IMG/VR virus record: IMGVR_UViG_3300045961_000035
Span: 1 to 54,307 of that record
Source of the DNA: a virus
Direction: 5' to 3' (one strand)
DNA: 54,307 nucleotides
Each line of letters begins with the position of its first letter. Positions within the stretch are counted from its first letter, which is position 1. Below the pieces are notes generated by a model that did not search any database, had not been told where the DNA came from, and saw only the letters and a list, made by a program, of their open reading frames with translations. Position numbers and translations under genes: made by a program. This document shows, one piece after another, positions 3,901 to 54,307 of this stretch.

Positions 3901-3930
3901 TAAAAAAAGAGAGGAGGTCATGCGACCTCC
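3901..3930 (-). terminator. Intrinsic terminator overlapping the ardC stop codon
   Basis: On the minus strand GGAGGTC pairs with GACCTCC around the loop GCAT, followed by TCTCTTTTTTT. The hairpin includes the ardC stop codon, so ardC should end a transcription unit, at least partly. Confidence 0.75.
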
Positions 3931-4841
3931 CCTACTATCATGTCAACCGCCTTACTGCTCTGCGTGAGGGCACTCACGATGGCCTTGCTCGGCGTCTCCT
4001 TAATCTTCTTACACCACCCCTGAATGTAGGCGAGGGAATTGTCTCCGCCGTCCTTTGGATTCAGTCCGGCGATACCGGATATCATCATTGAGCCGCTCTC
4101 CGCGACCAACTCCTCCATCGCGTACTGCTCACTGCCGAACACATCAAACTCAACCACGCCCTTGCGCTTGAGACGGCTATCGTGACCGGTGCTATGCACC
4201 AACTCATGGAACAAGGTCTTGTAGTAAGAGTCAGAGTCAACGAACTGCTCGACCTTGGGCATCTGAACGTAGTCCGACGCCGGTGAATAGTAGGCACTAT
4301 TGCCGCCGTGCTTGATGGCCGGCTTGCCGTCCCACGCCGCAATGATGCGCTCGGCCTCCTCAACCGGATTGAACTCTGCCGGCTCCACGACAACGGCTCC
4401 GCCACGCGGCGCAATGTCCGTGCATTGGGCTATATTAAAGACCTTGTACATCTTCAACGTGAAGTACTTCTTGATATCCTTGGGATTCTCGCCGGCACTA
4501 ATTGCGGCGGCCTCGCTCGGGTAGGTCTTCTTCGTGTCGGCGTTCCAATATCCGATGTACCAAAAGTAGATGTCGGTGGCCTTTTCGCCCTTGTTGACGC
4601 GGCCCTTCAATTCAGTCACCTGCTTGAACGTGAGCCACTCGTTGTAGTCGTAGCCGAACTCACGCATGGCCGCCGAAAGGAGCCACACGTTCATGCCGTT
4701 GTAGGCGCGGCCGCTGACGCGGTTGACCGGCCGCCAATCGGAGCCGTTGGTGGACTTCCATGGCTTGAACCACTGCAGGCCCTCGCGCTCAACTCCGGCG
4801 AGGATGGTCTCTTTTACTTGTTCGAAGATGTCTTGCTTCAT
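3918..4841 (-). CDS. ardC: ArdC-type antirestriction protein, zincin metallopeptidase, 307 aa
   Basis: The N-terminal region (residues 1-140) matches the ArdC N-terminal domain type (DUF1738): GLQWFKPWKS, GRAYNGMNVWLL and YFTLKMYKVFNIAQC are typical. ArdC-family proteins bind single-stranded DNA and protect incoming DNA from restriction. The C-terminal region has a zincin motif, HELVH at 212-216, with H220 and the later EELVAE Glu residues as possible third ligands. The length is near the family norm of about 300. The start lies 22 bases after the predicted hammerhead cleavage site and just after a CCCCC run, and an intrinsic terminator covers the stop. The family call is strong; action against host restriction is inferred from the family. 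Confidence 0.88.
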   Translation of the reverse strand: MKQDIFEQVKETILAGVEREGLQWFKPWKSTNGSDWRPVNRVSGRAYNGMNVWLLSAAMREFGYDYNEWLTFKQVTELKGRVNKGEKATDIYFWYIGYWNADTKKTYPSEAAAISAGENPKDIKKYFTLKMYKVFNIAQCTDIAPRGGAVVVEPAEFNPVEEAERIIAAWDGKPAIKHGGNSAYYSPASDYVQMPKVEQFVDSDSYYKTLFHELVHSTGHDSRLKRKGVVEFDVFGSEQYAMEELVAESGSMMISGIAGLNPKDGGDNSLAYIQGWCKKIKETPSKAIVSALTQSSKAVDMIVGEVA

Positions 4842-6574: not shown

Positions 6575-6790
6575 ACTGACGGGCGGGCGGGGCTTAACCG
6601 CCCTCTTCGGGCGTCTCTTTTGTAGTAAAAACGCGGGGCGGACGGGCGGAACGGGCGCGGTGACGGCGGCCGGACGGGGCGCGTGGCGCGACAGGTGCGC
6701 TGCCTGTACGACGATGTTGGAACATGCATGTTGCAACACGGAAACGGCAAAAAATCCGGACGGGGCTCGGCAAATCAGACCCCCCCTATC
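6575..6790. other. GC-rich island with GGGCGG tracts
   Basis: This stretch is far richer in G and C than its flanks and carries repeated GGGCGG and GCGGGGC tracts. A short plus-strand hairpin, CGCCC-TCTTC-GGGCG, is followed by TCTCTTTT at about 6588-6610 and may terminate transcription. A 67-codon plus-strand frame (6660-6863) covers part of it but has no recognisable motif. The composition suggests recent acquisition or a structural role. Confidence 0.4.
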
Positions 6791-6869
6791 GAAAAAATAT
6801 CGGTTTCCGGAACGGGCGGTGTCGCGTAGGATGGCAGGGAACCCAAACCCTCTAAAAATCTGATGTCCG

Positions 6870-6877
6870 TATATTTG
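6870..6877 (+). promoter_or_regulatory. Bacteroidota -7-like box TATATTTG
   Basis: TATATTTG matches the TAnnTTTG -7 consensus of the Bacteroidota primary sigma factor and lies 4 bases before the ATG at 6881. No clear -33 TTTG is seen at the usual spacing. Confidence 0.5.
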
Positions 6878-6880
6878 CTT

Positions 6881-7030
6881 ATGGACTGGTGGGCTATCGA
6901 GATAGAGAATCGTGTGATGACTGGCTTCGTTGTTGGTGTGGAGTTCTACCGTGCTGACGTGGAGTTGGAGGAGCCGGGTGAGTTTCGGTTACACTTGGGA
7001 CTGTTAAGTATAAATTTTCTGTGGTTATGA
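6881..7030 (+). CDS. Small hypothetical protein, 49 aa
   Basis: The frame begins MDWWAIEIENRVMTG and is rich in Val, Glu and aromatic residues. An in-frame ATG at 6863 lies upstream of the promoter box, so 6881 or an internal Met is a better start and the transcript may be nearly leaderless. It ends in an ATGA overlap with the next gene. Function is unknown. Confidence 0.5.
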   Translation: MDWWAIEIENRVMTGFVVGVEFYRADVELEEPGEFRLHLGLLSINFLWL

Positions 7031-7182
7031 AAAACGCAAAGATGATTCCGGACTCGAAGCCGGTTATGGTAGGTGAGACTGGTATCCAGGCTGCTCTCCG
7101 TGTCAAGAAGACGAAGGAGATGATGGGCGAGATGGCTGAGGCTATGATGGAGGCGCGTATTATGCGTGGTCGTCGTGGCTAA
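7027..7182 (+). CDS. Small Met/Arg-rich hypothetical protein, 51 aa
   Basis: A 51-residue protein with a Met- and Glu-rich helix (KEMMGEMAEAMMEARIM) and an RGRRG tail. It overlaps both neighbours by a few bases. The helix could dimerise; function is unknown. Confidence 0.5.
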   Translation: MKNAKMIPDSKPVMVGETGIQAALRVKKTKEMMGEMAEAMMEARIMRGRRG

Positions 7183-7294
7183 GTCGAGCAAGAAGCGCAC
7201 GAACAAGGTAGTCGGTGTGAAGAAGGTGAGTGCTGACAGGGCACAGACCGGACGTCGGAACCTTGACGTGTTAGATGCCATAAAATCCCGGTAG
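7175..7294 (+). CDS. Small basic protein, 39 aa
   Basis: GTG start at 7175, overlapping the previous stop. The sequence (MAKSSKKRTNKVVGVKK) is strongly basic, like the small proteins at 10667 and 12867, suggesting nucleic-acid binding. Function is unknown. Confidence 0.5.
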   Translation: MAKSSKKRTNKVVGVKKVSADRAQTGRRNLDVLDAIKSR

Positions 7295-7367
7295 GTATCC
7301 TACCGTGATGTTAGAAGAGGAGGGCTTGGCTCTCCTTTTCTGCTTTTATAGAGTCTCTAGACTCTAT
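7289..7367 (+). terminator. Terminator-like hairpin cluster
   Basis: Three inverted repeats follow the small genes: CGGTAGG/CCTACCG (7289-7305), AGGAG/CTCCT followed by TTTTC (7318-7340), and ATAGAGTC/GACTCTAT (7348-7367). The second has the form of an intrinsic terminator and probably ends the small operon before the repeat array. Confidence 0.5.
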
Positions 7368-7414
7368 CAATTTCAGTTCTCTAAGACTAAAAGAGTACTT
7401 AATCAGTACTCTTG

Positions 7415-7724
7415 TGTCGATTCTTATATAGTTAGTGTCGATTTAATGTCGATTTAGTGTCGATTTCTATTCTATTATATTATTGATTTTCAATTAGTTA
7501 TATATAAAATGTCGAAAATGTCGATTTTAAAGTCGATTTTCTCTGAGAAAAAATATTTTACAACCCTATATATATAGAGAGAGAATAGGAAACCCAAAAA
7601 AACCGACATTTTCGACACTTCACAGCTCAAAGAGCTGAGAACCAGCCGACTAAGTCGACACAAAACCGACACAGGTTAGTGTCGATTTCTTTAAGTTGCT
7701 GATTATCAGCATACATTTTCGACA
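7415..7724. repeat. TGTCGA repeat array, putative replication origin
   Basis: About a dozen copies of TGTCGA or its complement lie in 310 AT-rich bases. Three TGTCGATTT copies start at 7436, 7447 and 7458, exactly 11 bases apart. TGTCGAAAATGTCG at 7510-7523 has its exact reverse complement at 7604-7617, forming a long inverted repeat around a TATATATA-containing core. Further copies lie at 7415, 7519, 7654, 7680 and 7719. Iterons plus an AT-rich spacer between divergent units are typical of replication origins. A perfect GCTGATTATCAGC palindrome sits within the array. Confidence 0.6.
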
Positions 7725-7759
7725 TCGGTCGCTTCGCGAACTCATTTATTTGGTTTTTG

Positions 7760-7767
7760 TAACTTTG
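7760..7767 (+). promoter_or_regulatory. -7-like box TAACTTTG
   Basis: TAACTTTG fits TAnnTTTG and lies 24 bases before the ATG at 7792. A TTTG at 7749 is too close to be the -33 element. Confidence 0.5.
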
Positions 7768-8144: not shown

Positions 8145-9737
8145 ATGGACTACACACCTAAGAGTTTGACCTTTGACCAGGACGGTCGCGAGCGTTTGCT
8201 CAGTGGATTGGATAAGATGGCCAAGGCCGTCGGCAGTACGTTGGGGCCTAGGGGCAAGACGGTGCTGATTGAGAGCCAACACCACACGCACGGCATCACT
8301 GTAACCAAGGACGGGGTGACTGTCGCCAAGAGTATTGACCTGTTGGACCCGGTTGAGAACCTAGCGGTGCGCATGATGCGCGAGGCGGCGGAGCGCACGG
8401 CTACGAGTGCTGGTGACGGCACGACCACGGCGGTGGTGCTGACCCACGCGCTGGTGCGTACGGGCATGCAGCTCATCACCGACGAGTACAACGCCACTGA
8501 GGTGCTGCGTCACATGCACAGCCTGAGTGAGGAGGCCATTAAGAAGCTCGAGAAGATGTCGCGGAAGGTGACGCCGTCGAGGTTGAAGGACGTGGCGACT
8601 ATCTCCGCCAACAACGACCGCACGCTCGGTGAGCTCATCGCTAAGGTGTACGGACAGGTGGGGAAGAACGGGCTGGTAACGGTCGAGAAGGGCACCGGCG
8701 ACGAGACGACCTACGAGGTGACAAACGGGATACGCATCGACAGGGGGTACAGCACCAAGCTGTTCGTGAACGACCAGAAGAAGGACGAGTGTGTGCTCGA
8801 GGACGTGTACATCCTGATGACGGACCACGAGATAAGTAACATCTTACAGATTGAGACGGTGCTCAAGCCCATCGTGGCTGGTGGGCATAAGCTGCTCATC
8901 ATCGCTCCGTGCAGTAACCAGGTCACAACGACGCTGGCCGCCAACGTCATTAAGAACGGGCTGAAGCTGTGCGCCATCGCGCCACCTCAGTTCGGCTACA
9001 AGCAGCACGAGCTGATGGGTGACATCGCCGCTAGCGTCGGCGGTCGGTTCATAAGCGAGGGGATGGGCGACGAGCTCAGCCTGGTGACCATGGCCGACCT
9101 GGGTCATGCCGCTAAGGTCATCGTCGGTAAGGACTCGACGGTCATCGTCCGTAAGGAAGGGACGAGCGCAGAGGTGAACGCCAGGGTGAATGAGCTGTGG
9201 AGCGCCCACGACCAGGCCAGTAAGAAGGGCGACCGTGACTTCATCAAGCAGCGCATCGCCAGCCTGACTGGTGGGGTTGGTATTATCTACGTTGGGGGCA
9301 GCTCGGACGTGGAGCAGAAGGAGACCTACGACCGGGTAGAGGACGCGGTGCAGGCCGTGCGCTCGGCGCTCGAGGAGGGTATACTGCCGGGTGGTGGCGT
9401 AGCGCTGCACAGCGTGTCGCACTGGATGGACGACAACATCACAGCCACGTCTGAGGAGATGAGGCTGGCGCACCGCATCATGTCGCTGGCGATGATTGAG
9501 CCTGCCGCGCGCATCGTCGAGAACGCCGGCCTTGAGTTCATCGAGATAGCTGGCGGCATGGATGGTGACAATGGGCTCAACGTGAAGACTATGACGTACG
9601 GTGACATGTACGACATGGGCGTCATCGACCCACTGAAGGTAACTAAGAACGCGCTGCGTAACGCGGTGAGCGTGGCCACGACGATACTGAGCACCAACGC
9701 CATCATCACGCTGGCTAGAAGCTACGAGGACAGTTGA
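8145..9737 (+). CDS. groEL: Phage-encoded GroEL-type chaperonin, 530 aa
   Basis: GroEL forms double-ring ATPase chambers that fold proteins together with GroES. Recognisable blocks are STLGPRGKTVLIE (31-43), KDGVTVAKSIDLLDPVENL (55-73), the nucleotide loop AGDGTTTAVVL (89-99) and EDAVQAVRSALEEGILPGGG near the C-terminus. The length is slightly below bacterial GroEL (about 545), and the Gly-Met-rich tail is absent. I chose ATG 8145 because the upstream 18 codons overlap the promoter and terminator. The apical region is more divergent than the equatorial region, as expected for a specialised client such as capsid or fibre protein. It is followed by a zinc-knuckle-like ORF and GroES in one operon. 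Confidence 0.95.
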   Translation: MDYTPKSLTFDQDGRERLLSGLDKMAKAVGSTLGPRGKTVLIESQHHTHGITVTKDGVTVAKSIDLLDPVENLAVRMMREAAERTATSAGDGTTTAVVLTHALVRTGMQLITDEYNATEVLRHMHSLSEEAIKKLEKMSRKVTPSRLKDVATISANNDRTLGELIAKVYGQVGKNGLVTVEKGTGDETTYEVTNGIRIDRGYSTKLFVNDQKKDECVLEDVYILMTDHEISNILQIETVLKPIVAGGHKLLIIAPCSNQVTTTLAANVIKNGLKLCAIAPPQFGYKQHELMGDIAASVGGRFISEGMGDELSLVTMADLGHAAKVIVGKDSTVIVRKEGTSAEVNARVNELWSAHDQASKKGDRDFIKQRIASLTGGVGIIYVGGSSDVEQKETYDRVEDAVQAVRSALEEGILPGGGVALHSVSHWMDDNITATSEEMRLAHRIMSLAMIEPAARIVENAGLEFIEIAGGMDGDNGLNVKTMTYGDMYDMGVIDPLKVTKNALRNAVSVATTILSTNAIITLARSYEDS

Positions 9738-9880: not shown

Positions 9881-10118
9881 GTACTTGATTATCAAGCAGA
9901 TTGAGGAGCAGCACAAGACCGAGAGCGGTCTGCTGCTGGGTGACGACCAGGTGAGTATCCGCTACAAGCGCGCCACGGTGGTGGCTGCGGGCACAGACGT
10001 GAGCACTATGGCTGCTGGGGACCTGATTCAGTTTGACCGTTCCGCTGGGCATACAATGATTCTCGGCGGCGAAGCTTATACCGTGATACTCGAGCGTGAC
10101 GTTGTTCTTGTCGAATAG
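9864..10118 (+). CDS. groES: GroES-type co-chaperonin, 84 aa
   Basis: GroES caps the GroEL chamber. The fold signature is clear: IGKYLIIKQIEE at the N-terminus, a short mobile-loop region around SGLLLGDD (compare GGIVL in bacterial GroES), KRATVVAAG, AAGDLIQFDRSAG and a C-terminal YTVILERDVVLVE. It is about ten residues shorter than host GroES. Its last 113 bases overlap a convergent winged-helix gene on the other strand. Confidence 0.9.
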   Translation: MKPIGKYLIIKQIEEQHKTESGLLLGDDQVSIRYKRATVVAAGTDVSTMAAGDLIQFDRSAGHTMILGGEAYTVILERDVVLVE

Positions 10119-10635
10119 ACTTGTTCAGCTTCTTGATGTAGTTACGGTGCACCTTCTCGGTGTAGGTAGCGTCCTTCCTGAACATGGGGTTGAGCTTCTC
10201 GGTCTCTGAGATGATTTCGCCGTTGAGCTTCTTGTACATGTTCTTAATCATCTGGTGCGCCTCTGGCGTGATTTCGTAGAGTGCGATGCGCCCTGGTGCT
10301 GGCTTGCGCCACATGTGCACCCAGCCGCGCTGCATCAGTCGAGAGAAGCGTTTCTTATCCCACGGGAAGATGGAGTCGAACTCCTTGATGTCGGACTTCT
10401 TGAAGTACCCCTCGCTGTACAGGAACAGGAGCATCTCCAGGTCGGCGAGCCTGATGTCGTACTTGTACTGCATCCAGTAGCGCACCACTCTCCAGTACTT
10501 CATAAAGTCGTCGCGGTATGTCGCCTTGACGTATCGGCCGTTACGGTGCTTGGTTGGTGGCAGGTTCTTCTGCGCCTTCCGCTTTTCTACCTTGGCCTTT
10601 AGGCGCTCCTCGGCAGGAGTAAGTGGATATTTCAT
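10006..10635 (-). CDS. Winged-helix DNA-binding protein (MarR-like), 209 aa
   Basis: The segment LADLEMLLFLYSEGYFKK, then FPWDKKRFSRLMQRGW, then RIALYEITPEAHQMIKNMY (about residues 64-135) has the helix-helix-wing layout of MarR-like regulators. Basic N- and C-terminal extensions flank it (EERLKAKVEKRKAQKN; RVSRYKLRRRESLYAQR). It is the only leftward gene in the rightward block. Its last 37 codons are antisense to groES, so the two may repress each other. It is a candidate late-gene or operator regulator; targets are unknown. Confidence 0.75.
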   Translation of the reverse strand: MKYPLTPAEERLKAKVEKRKAQKNLPPTKHRNGRYVKATYRDDFMKYWRVVRYWMQYKYDIRLADLEMLLFLYSEGYFKKSDIKEFDSIFPWDKKRFSRLMQRGWVHMWRKPAPGRIALYEITPEAHQMIKNMYKKLNGEIISETEKLNPMFRKDATYTEKVHRNYIKKLNKSIRQEQRHARVSRYKLRRRESLYAQRNGQTESGPQQP

Positions 10636-49751: not shown

Positions 49752-49982
49752 TTATTGGTCCATCGAAGATAGTAATCTATCTCCAATTTCTGAATCAATT
49801 TTCTTTATGTATGTGTAAATCTTTTTAGACTTGGACTTGACTTCTTGCTTTTCCTTCTTAGTGGAGTTCACTCCCATCCTTGTGTAGAGCATGCAGTCAA
49901 TCTGCAGAAGCTTGCTAATCTTACAGCGGTCGCACAGCTTGGCTGACATCAGCTTGTCAATTTGTTCAAAGTTGTAGTCCAT
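49752..49982 (-). CDS. Hypothetical Lys-rich protein, 76 aa
   Basis: Contains CDRCKISKLLQIDC near the N-terminus and a Lys-rich region (STKKEKQEVKSKSKKIYTYI). Three Cys residues could bind metal. It begins inside the end of the DnaA-like gene. Function is unknown. Confidence 0.55.
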   Translation of the reverse strand: MDYNFEQIDKLMSAKLCDRCKISKLLQIDCMLYTRMGVNSTKKEKQEVKSKSKKIYTYIKKIDSEIGDRLLSSMDQ

Positions 49983-50496
49983 TCATGAATCGATTTAGTT
50001 TCTCTTCGAATATACTAATCTTGCTTACTGGCACCTGCTGCTTCATTCTTTCCAGTACGTTATGAAACAATTCATAGTTTTCTGCCTGACGCTCAATTAG
50101 TTTCAGTTGCAAAGATAGTGAAGATACTTTATCGGAAAGCATTTCGTTTTCTGATTTGAGGATGGCATTGTCGGCGATGATGTCATCAGCAATCTCAGTT
50201 GTCATGTGCCCGGACTCAATCTTTTCCTTGAAGTACTTTACCACTCGCTCGTATTTCTCCTTGAACATCTTGTCGCTAGACAGCCACCCCTCTACGTTGC
50301 GAAGTCCGTGCATCACGGTAGCGTGGTCTCTGTTTACCTCCTCGCCAATCCTTGAAAGCGAGTAGTGGTAAGTGTCCTTAGCTATCTTGTAGTATATGTA
50401 CCTAGCCTCAACGTACTCTTTTCTCCTTGTCTTTAATCTTATGTCGAACTGAGTGATGTTAGTGACCATGTCAGCTAGTAATCTCAAGTGATTCAT
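49966..50496 (-). CDS. DnaA domain IV-like DNA-binding protein, 176 aa
   Basis: Residues 21-70 (TRRKEYVEARYIYYKIAKD, then YSLSRIGEEVNRDHATVMHG) match the C-terminal DNA-binding domain of DnaA, including the DHATVMHG signature (57-64; DHSTVLHA in bacteria). There is no AAA+ ATPase domain. The rest is a long coiled coil (residues about 100-150) that may dimerise it. It is probably a phage initiator, origin-binding protein or competitor of host DnaA. Its likely targets include the repeat region at 6.2-7.8 kb, though I see no exact TTATCCACA box there. Confidence 0.82.
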   Translation of the reverse strand: MNHLRLLADMVTNITQFDIRLKTRRKEYVEARYIYYKIAKDTYHYSLSRIGEEVNRDHATVMHGLRNVEGWLSSDKMFKEKYERVVKYFKEKIESGHMTTEIADDIIADNAILKSENEMLSDKVSSLSLQLKLIERQAENYELFHNVLERMKQQVPVSKISIFEEKLNRFMNGLQL

Positions 50497-54119: not shown

Positions 54120-54307
54120 TTCTCTTTGGTGTTAAAGGTTTCATTGTAGTAATCTCTTGGTGAATGAGTCATACCATCAATCAATCCTTGTTGATAGGCT
54201 CTTCCAATCTGCTCCTTCTCTTTGTTAAGCAATGATTCAGCTAGTGCAATAGTTGTTTCTAAACCAATTTTTACACCTCTCCAATAAGTATCATAACTTA
54301 CTTCAAT
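54116..54307 (-). CDS. Partial small phage protein, N-terminus beyond window
   Basis: The visible 63 codons include KEKEQIGRAYQQGLIDGMTH and a C-terminal DYYNETFNTKEK, a pattern of the small Bacteroidota phage proteins that share the MKQTAVEWL start. The gene runs off the right end of the window. Confidence 0.6.
   Translation of the reverse strand: MEVSYDTYWRGVKIGLETTIALAESLLNKEKEQIGRAYQQGLIDGMTHSPRDYYNETFNTKEK

Follow-up and report, generated by a model that had tools for sequence, protein, structure and literature searches.

The DNA analysed here (from now on, the window) is a virus record of 54,307 bases, whose genes include those for the large terminase, the portal, GroEL/GroES and structural proteins. 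By terminase, its closest named relative is MW202828 (73.5% identity), the Flavobacterium elemo and Cellulophaga phages being more distant, and the window represents part of the genome of a phage with a Bacteroidota host. Its relatives are phages of 54-66 kb, which carry terminase, portal and structural genes; since their primase, exonuclease VIII-like and Sak-like genes are absent from the window record, this record is a fragment, with several kb absent between the window ends (positions 54307 and 1). The window's own primase-helicase gene is in the missing part, and the window is also without the second copy of the repeat element described below. An ArdC-like anti-restriction protein gene lies at 3918-4841, within the early genes. 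A tRNA was the sole match in an Rfam scan of the window, and a nucleotide search of the element region against phage records gave no match.

Upstream of groEL lies a dense array of short repeats (from now on, boxes). Its parts are listed below in window coordinates, together with the neighbouring signals and two genes whose products were considered as readers of the boxes:

7313-7345, + strand: GC-rich stem followed by a T-rich run, between the small ORF and the element (a terminator, as judged by eye)
7414-7466, + strand: left outer arm, with direct boxes at 7414 (GTGTCGATTC), 7435 (GTGTCGATTT), 7446 (ATGTCGATTT) and 7457 (GTGTCGATTT), with counterparts in relatives
7471-7509, no strand: strongly AT-rich stretch (10% G+C)
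7476-7495, no strand: IHF-like block, the counterpart of a conserved TAACTNATTGATTATTAATA, imperfectly copied in the window
7509-7539, + strand: left inner pair (7509 and 7518, at 9-bp spacing) and a third box at 7530 (AAGTCGATTT)
7541-7599, no strand: AT-rich spacer between the inner pairs, holding TATATATATA (7567-7576) and GAGAGAGAATAGGAAAC; proposed melting region
7600-7618, - strand: right inner pair (7609 and 7600, at 9-bp spacing), which forms an inverted repeat with the left pair
7652-7725, no single strand: right outer arm, with boxes at 7652 (AAGTCGACAC / GTGTCGACTT, both strands), 7663 (-), 7679 (+) and 7716 (-)
7760-7767, + strand: promoter-like TAACTTTG, which fits TAnnTTTG and stands before the groEL unit; like sites recur in relatives
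8145-9737, + strand: groEL, downstream of the element and the anchor for finding relatives
10006-10635, - strand: phrog_17028 regulator-like protein, found in all 34 genomes; rejected as box reader
49966-50496, - strand: long DnaA_C (PF08299) protein, 176 aa; considered as box reader and not favoured

The initial annotation had reported about a dozen copies of TGTCGA within 310 bases. The array is real, with an exact count of ten in 7415-7724 (310 bp, both strands counted) and, when near copies are included, 14 box-like 10-mers at 13 positions: 7414, 7435, 7446, 7457, 7509, 7518, 7530, 7652 and 7679 on the + strand, and 7600, 7609, 7652, 7663 and 7716 on the - strand (7652 can be read on both). 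In 5000 first-order shuffles of the same 310 bp, TGTCGA occurred 0.28 times on average and four times at most, and no 310-bp stretch elsewhere in the window exceeds the array in hexamer repetition. The 11-base phasing claimed for three copies was found at 7435, 7446 and 7457, in the left outer arm, and the 9-bp spacing of the inner pair is also found in relatives. The inverted repeat around the core is present as well, but it is longer than the 14 bases claimed for it: its arms (7507-7528 and 7599-7620) span 22 nt, are 91% complementary and flank the AT-rich TATATATATA spacer. Duplex stability in the window is lowest over the 100 bp that begin at about 7476. The reverse complement of the conserved block (TAACTNATTGATTATTAATA) fits the IHF consensus WATCAANNNNTTR; the IHF count is partly circular, since the 84 elements used for column conservation were selected by their likeness to this same block.

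The placement of the array between divergent units, also proposed initially, does not strictly hold: up to 5546 the early genes lie on the - strand, a small + strand unit separates them from the array, and the array is then followed by the groEL unit. The small unit consists of an ORF (7028-7183) with a promoter-like TATATTTG at 6870. The Bacteroidota -7 promoter consensus is TAnnTTTG, and the promoter readings of both TATATTTG and TAACTTTG depend on this consensus. Upstream of the ORF, the noncoding stretch 6730-6885 looks conserved in relatives (with no match in Rfam) and contains GGCAAAAAATCC..., CCCCCCTATCGAAAAAATATCGGTTTCCGG and AACCC..., followed by TATATTTG. Additionally, the palindromes TAGAGTCTCTAGACTCTA and AGAGTACTTAATCAGTACTCT are found at 7345-7370 and 7392-7412, between the stem/T-run and the first box.

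Through groEL, 80 loci were gathered from relatives, and 34 genomes or large fragments were assembled. In most relatives the order upstream of groEL is the same (direct boxes, IHF-like site, box pair, AT-rich spacer and inverted boxes). Poor conservation of the repeats, which the initial annotation would have counted against an origin, is not what we found, since the element is kept in place and in layout across the family. The box sequence itself varies, being TGTCGATTT in most lineages, TGACGATTT in G002/G005, GTGACAACTT in G008, GTGTCRACTT in G009/G011, ATGCTCTTT/ATGCTTATT in G010/G017, TATTCCAA in G030 and GTGTTGAGT in L029. The AT-rich spacer contains ACTACT/AGTAGT trinucleotide runs in some relatives (in the first copies of L005, L010 and L027, and in the second copies of G002, G010 and G017), which resemble DnaA-trio repeats.

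About 25 of 31 genomes have a second copy of the element, identical in layout, where the 809-aa primase-helicase gene begins, and the two copies within one genome carry the matching box variant. The distance between the copy at the 5' end of this gene and the one before groEL is about 10 kb. In G050 the second copy is about 1.8 kb further upstream of the gene, and no second copy was seen at the gene start in G001, G003, G008, G009, G011 and G021 (G001 and G003, the nearest relatives of the window, have the primase-helicase gene without an adjoining copy).

The contigs G006 and G034 terminate within the second copy, as might be expected from a packaging site (cos or pac), and the cosB site of phage lambda likewise combines repeats with an IHF site. 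Nevertheless, contig ends in AT runs are a frequent assembly break, the element is present in two copies per genome, distant from the terminase gene (at 22.8-25.1 kb), and the boxes co-vary with the primase-helicase (as described below), all of which make a packaging site very improbable. We give practically no credence to an attP-like recombination site (arm-type direct repeats, an IHF site and a core): the direct boxes are indeed arm-like and an IHF-like site is present, but the phage integrase family that was searched for (PF00589) had matches in 0/24 genomes, and both the two copies per genome and the covariation with the primase-helicase speak against it.

The cumulative GC skew, which had been proposed as a check of the origin, reaches its minimum no more than 2 kb from the element in 23/23 long genomes; this speaks for an origin but is not decisive, since the skew tracks gene orientation, which changes nearby. 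In most genomes (G009, G030, G011, G017 and others), the stretch from the primase-helicase gene to the groEL element has a stronger skew than the region to the left of the gene, with gene direction unchanged. As for duplex stability, the record's minimum over 100 bp falls in the element in 11 of the 34 cases (the window among them), and the element is in the lowest 1.3% in all.

Concerning the protein that reads the boxes, the initial annotation had pointed to a DnaA-like protein, which our results do not favour. A phage DnaA_C (PF08299) protein, whether short or long, could in principle bind the boxes as a DnaA-like initiator: at least one such protein exists in every genome examined bar two fragments, and TGTCGATTT matches the reversed DnaA box TGTGGATAA at 6/9 positions. 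However, the boxes do not track the short form (r=0.15, p=0.10; for its HTH part, r=0.08, p=0.23), and each form is absent from several box-bearing genomes (the short one from G001, G003 and G036, the long one from G009, G011, G030 and G037). Exact TTATNCACA sites are, in addition, rare near the element: none of the 34 genomes has such a DnaA box within 1.1 kb of groEL, the window contains none, and in two genomes sites lie 1.1-2 kb upstream of groEL. Given these data, binding by a DnaA_C protein appears improbable. In this the element differs from an origin of the DnaA type, which has TTATNCACA boxes near its unwinding region. The phage family (seen in the window, L016, L026 and others) has two separate DnaA_C proteins (a short one of about 100 aa and a long one of about 180 aa), each of them missing in some lineages.

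The candidate readers compared were the proteins present in all or nearly all genomes. In partial Mantel tests against box distance, with the other proteins controlled, the C-terminal domain of the primase-helicase gave r=0.47 (p=0.015), and the short DnaA_C protein, the phrog_17028 regulator, the exonuclease and the SNF2 helicase were not significant. Since this C-terminal region had been picked after viewing the alignment, a larger set was collected, formed by primase-helicase genes and their upstream DNA (150 proteins under 93% identity); the covariation comes for the most part from the second copy, the one at the primase-helicase gene. The boxes were called without reference to the protein, leaving 90 non-redundant genomes usable after seven weak motifs were dropped (G001 and G021, with weak box motifs, and five genomes with doubtful ones); the L029-type boxes (GTGTTGAGT) were excluded from the covariation, since the L029 contig is without a primase-helicase.

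Among these 90 genomes, the residue at column 788, which belongs to the wing motif G[R/K]W, is R in 60/61 genomes with TGTC boxes, K in 15/18 with TGTT boxes and K in 4/4 with TGCT boxes, ranking first of 498 columns in its association with box class (Fisher p=6e-14). It also ranks first of 805 columns in nearest-pair contrasts (21/29 vs 1/30). On a tree made from the rest of the protein, box class and column 788 change 12 times each, with 6 changes on shared branches (p=1.8e-5, first of 628). In the Fisher and nearest-pair tests, column 761 (the helix position SR[T]) is also high-ranking. The pattern has exceptions (three TGTT genomes retain R, and both G008 and G009 have R, although their boxes differ), and column 328, outside the C-terminal domain, is likewise associated with box class. 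Covariation bears on the identity of the box reader, not on where replication starts, and, judged from the sequences, it points to the C-terminal winged helix of the phage primase-helicase as the putative reader.

The architecture of this protein comprises an AEP-like primase domain, an SF3 helicase and a C-terminal winged helix, and the Pfam domains found in the relatives are BT4734-like_N, PriCT_1 and DUF5906. A structure model of the helicase and C-terminal part, obtained from a 65-sequence alignment of the C-terminal half, has a mean pLDDT of 72, and the winged helix at its end is confident (pLDDT 84-95 across most of 251-312); single-sequence AlphaFold on the full primase-helicase gave a pLDDT of 33. 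In the model, the co-varying residues are SRT (279-281), which starts the recognition helix, and R308, on the wing. Among solved structures, the model is most like NrS-1 (6lrb) and the primase-helicase of SaPI5 (7ola, 7om0): 6lrb is the top Foldseek match of the helicase and C-terminal region (E 3.5e-5, about 16% identity), and 7ola has VIA Z 11.5, Foldseek E 7e-4 and about 13% identity. A sequence-profile search of solved structures returned a chance match only.

The boxes could also be operators with no origin function, serving a phage protein (the primase-helicase at its own promoter, or some other regulator) in the transcriptional control of the groEL/late unit and the primase-helicase gene. 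The element copies do precede two genes, and a TAnnTTTG motif follows the boxes, ahead of groEL, in the window as well as in many relatives. Nevertheless, the second copy has, by eye, no TAnnTTTG promoter facing the primase gene, the co-varying protein is the primase-helicase, and the inverted pairs around an AT-rich spacer fit published primase-helicase origins (PMC6092414). The other regulator at hand, the regulator-like phrog_17028, was rejected as box reader, since it is about 97% identical between G008 and G009 despite their differing boxes and shows no covariation. Operators without origin function are, in our judgement, unlikely.

A replication origin is the function best supported by the conserved place and layout, the co-variation of boxes and winged helix, and the skew minimum. 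Layout, conservation, duplication, box switching and box-wing covariation were computed directly, and the element is probably an iteron-type origin read by the phage primase-helicase. As to binding, melting and firing of the element, and the role of the second copy, we infer the following course of events. The primase-helicase would bind the boxes via its C-terminal winged helix, and the conserved block that separates outer from inner boxes would be bent by a host protein of the HU/IHF type. Oligomers of the helicase, sitting on the inverted inner pairs, would open up the AT-rich spacer, and the primase would lay primers to be extended by a host polymerase. DNA polymerases of families A, B and C were not found in 22 genomes, and these phages therefore presumably use the polymerase of the host. 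The second copy, at the primase-helicase gene, may be a second origin, may control that gene, or both. That this widespread family of Bacteroidota phages carries a pair of SaPI/P4-like origins, of which the first is located at the initiator gene and the other ahead of the groEL/late unit, that the two share one layout and switch iterons together, and that a single primase-helicase reads both through an Arg/Lys code in the wing of its winged helix, is a proposal for which we see the chances as evenly balanced.

If true, these proposals locate the replication origin and name the initiator for a large, little-studied group of aquatic Bacteroidota phages, and having two elements might link replication with the switch from early to late. 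P4 also carries a second cis element, crr, and the dual elements might form a paired ori/crr system in lytic phages. Additionally, about a dozen natural iteron switches, with a matching Arg/Lys switch, offer for a primase-helicase initiator a specificity code that is open to direct test.

Several known systems can be compared with this element. The origins of iteron plasmids combine direct repeats, IHF help and an AT-rich unwinding region (PMC4980987), and those of RK2, P1 and pSC101 resemble the element in these three respects; they differ in that plasmid iterons are 17-22 bp long and are read by Rep proteins that load the host helicase, and in the host DnaA boxes, which were not found close by here. 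The P4 alpha protein is a primase-SF3 helicase whose winged helix binds origin repeats, after which it unwinds and primes (PMC4234260). The likeness with our primase-helicase would be one of function; the P4 primase is of the TOPRIM type (PMC4234260), and P4 is a satellite. The NrS-1 PrimPol-helicase, the best Foldseek match of the helicase and C-terminal region, is a structure-only comparison, at about 16% identity.

The closest parallel in layout is with the SaPI and PICI origins, in which two iteron sets flank an AT-rich region (PMC6092414) and the Rep helicase recognises the iterons by its C-terminal domain (PMC7581432). Similarly, the short iterons of the window (7414-7539 and 7600-7725) flank the AT-rich 7541-7599, as they do in relatives, and the relatives have an SF3-type helicase initiator fused to a primase (as is also the case for SaPI5 PriRep1). 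The C-terminal domain of the initiator would set iteron specificity here too, as suggested by the covariation of wing R/K with TGTC/TGTT. On the other hand, the SaPI origin is downstream of rep, whereas the two copies described here lie at the 5' end of the primase-helicase gene and before groEL; the genomes are those of large tailed phages, not satellites (with no PF00589 integrase in the 24 genomes); and, compared with SaPI5, the identity is only about 13% and the boxes share a core of about 10 bp (ATGTCGATTT), with 9- and 11-bp spacings. According to PMC6092414, the PICIs are alone among known bacterial replicons in having two iteron sets around an AT-rich region, and this PICI-type layout is now found in tailed phages, mostly with two copies per genome.
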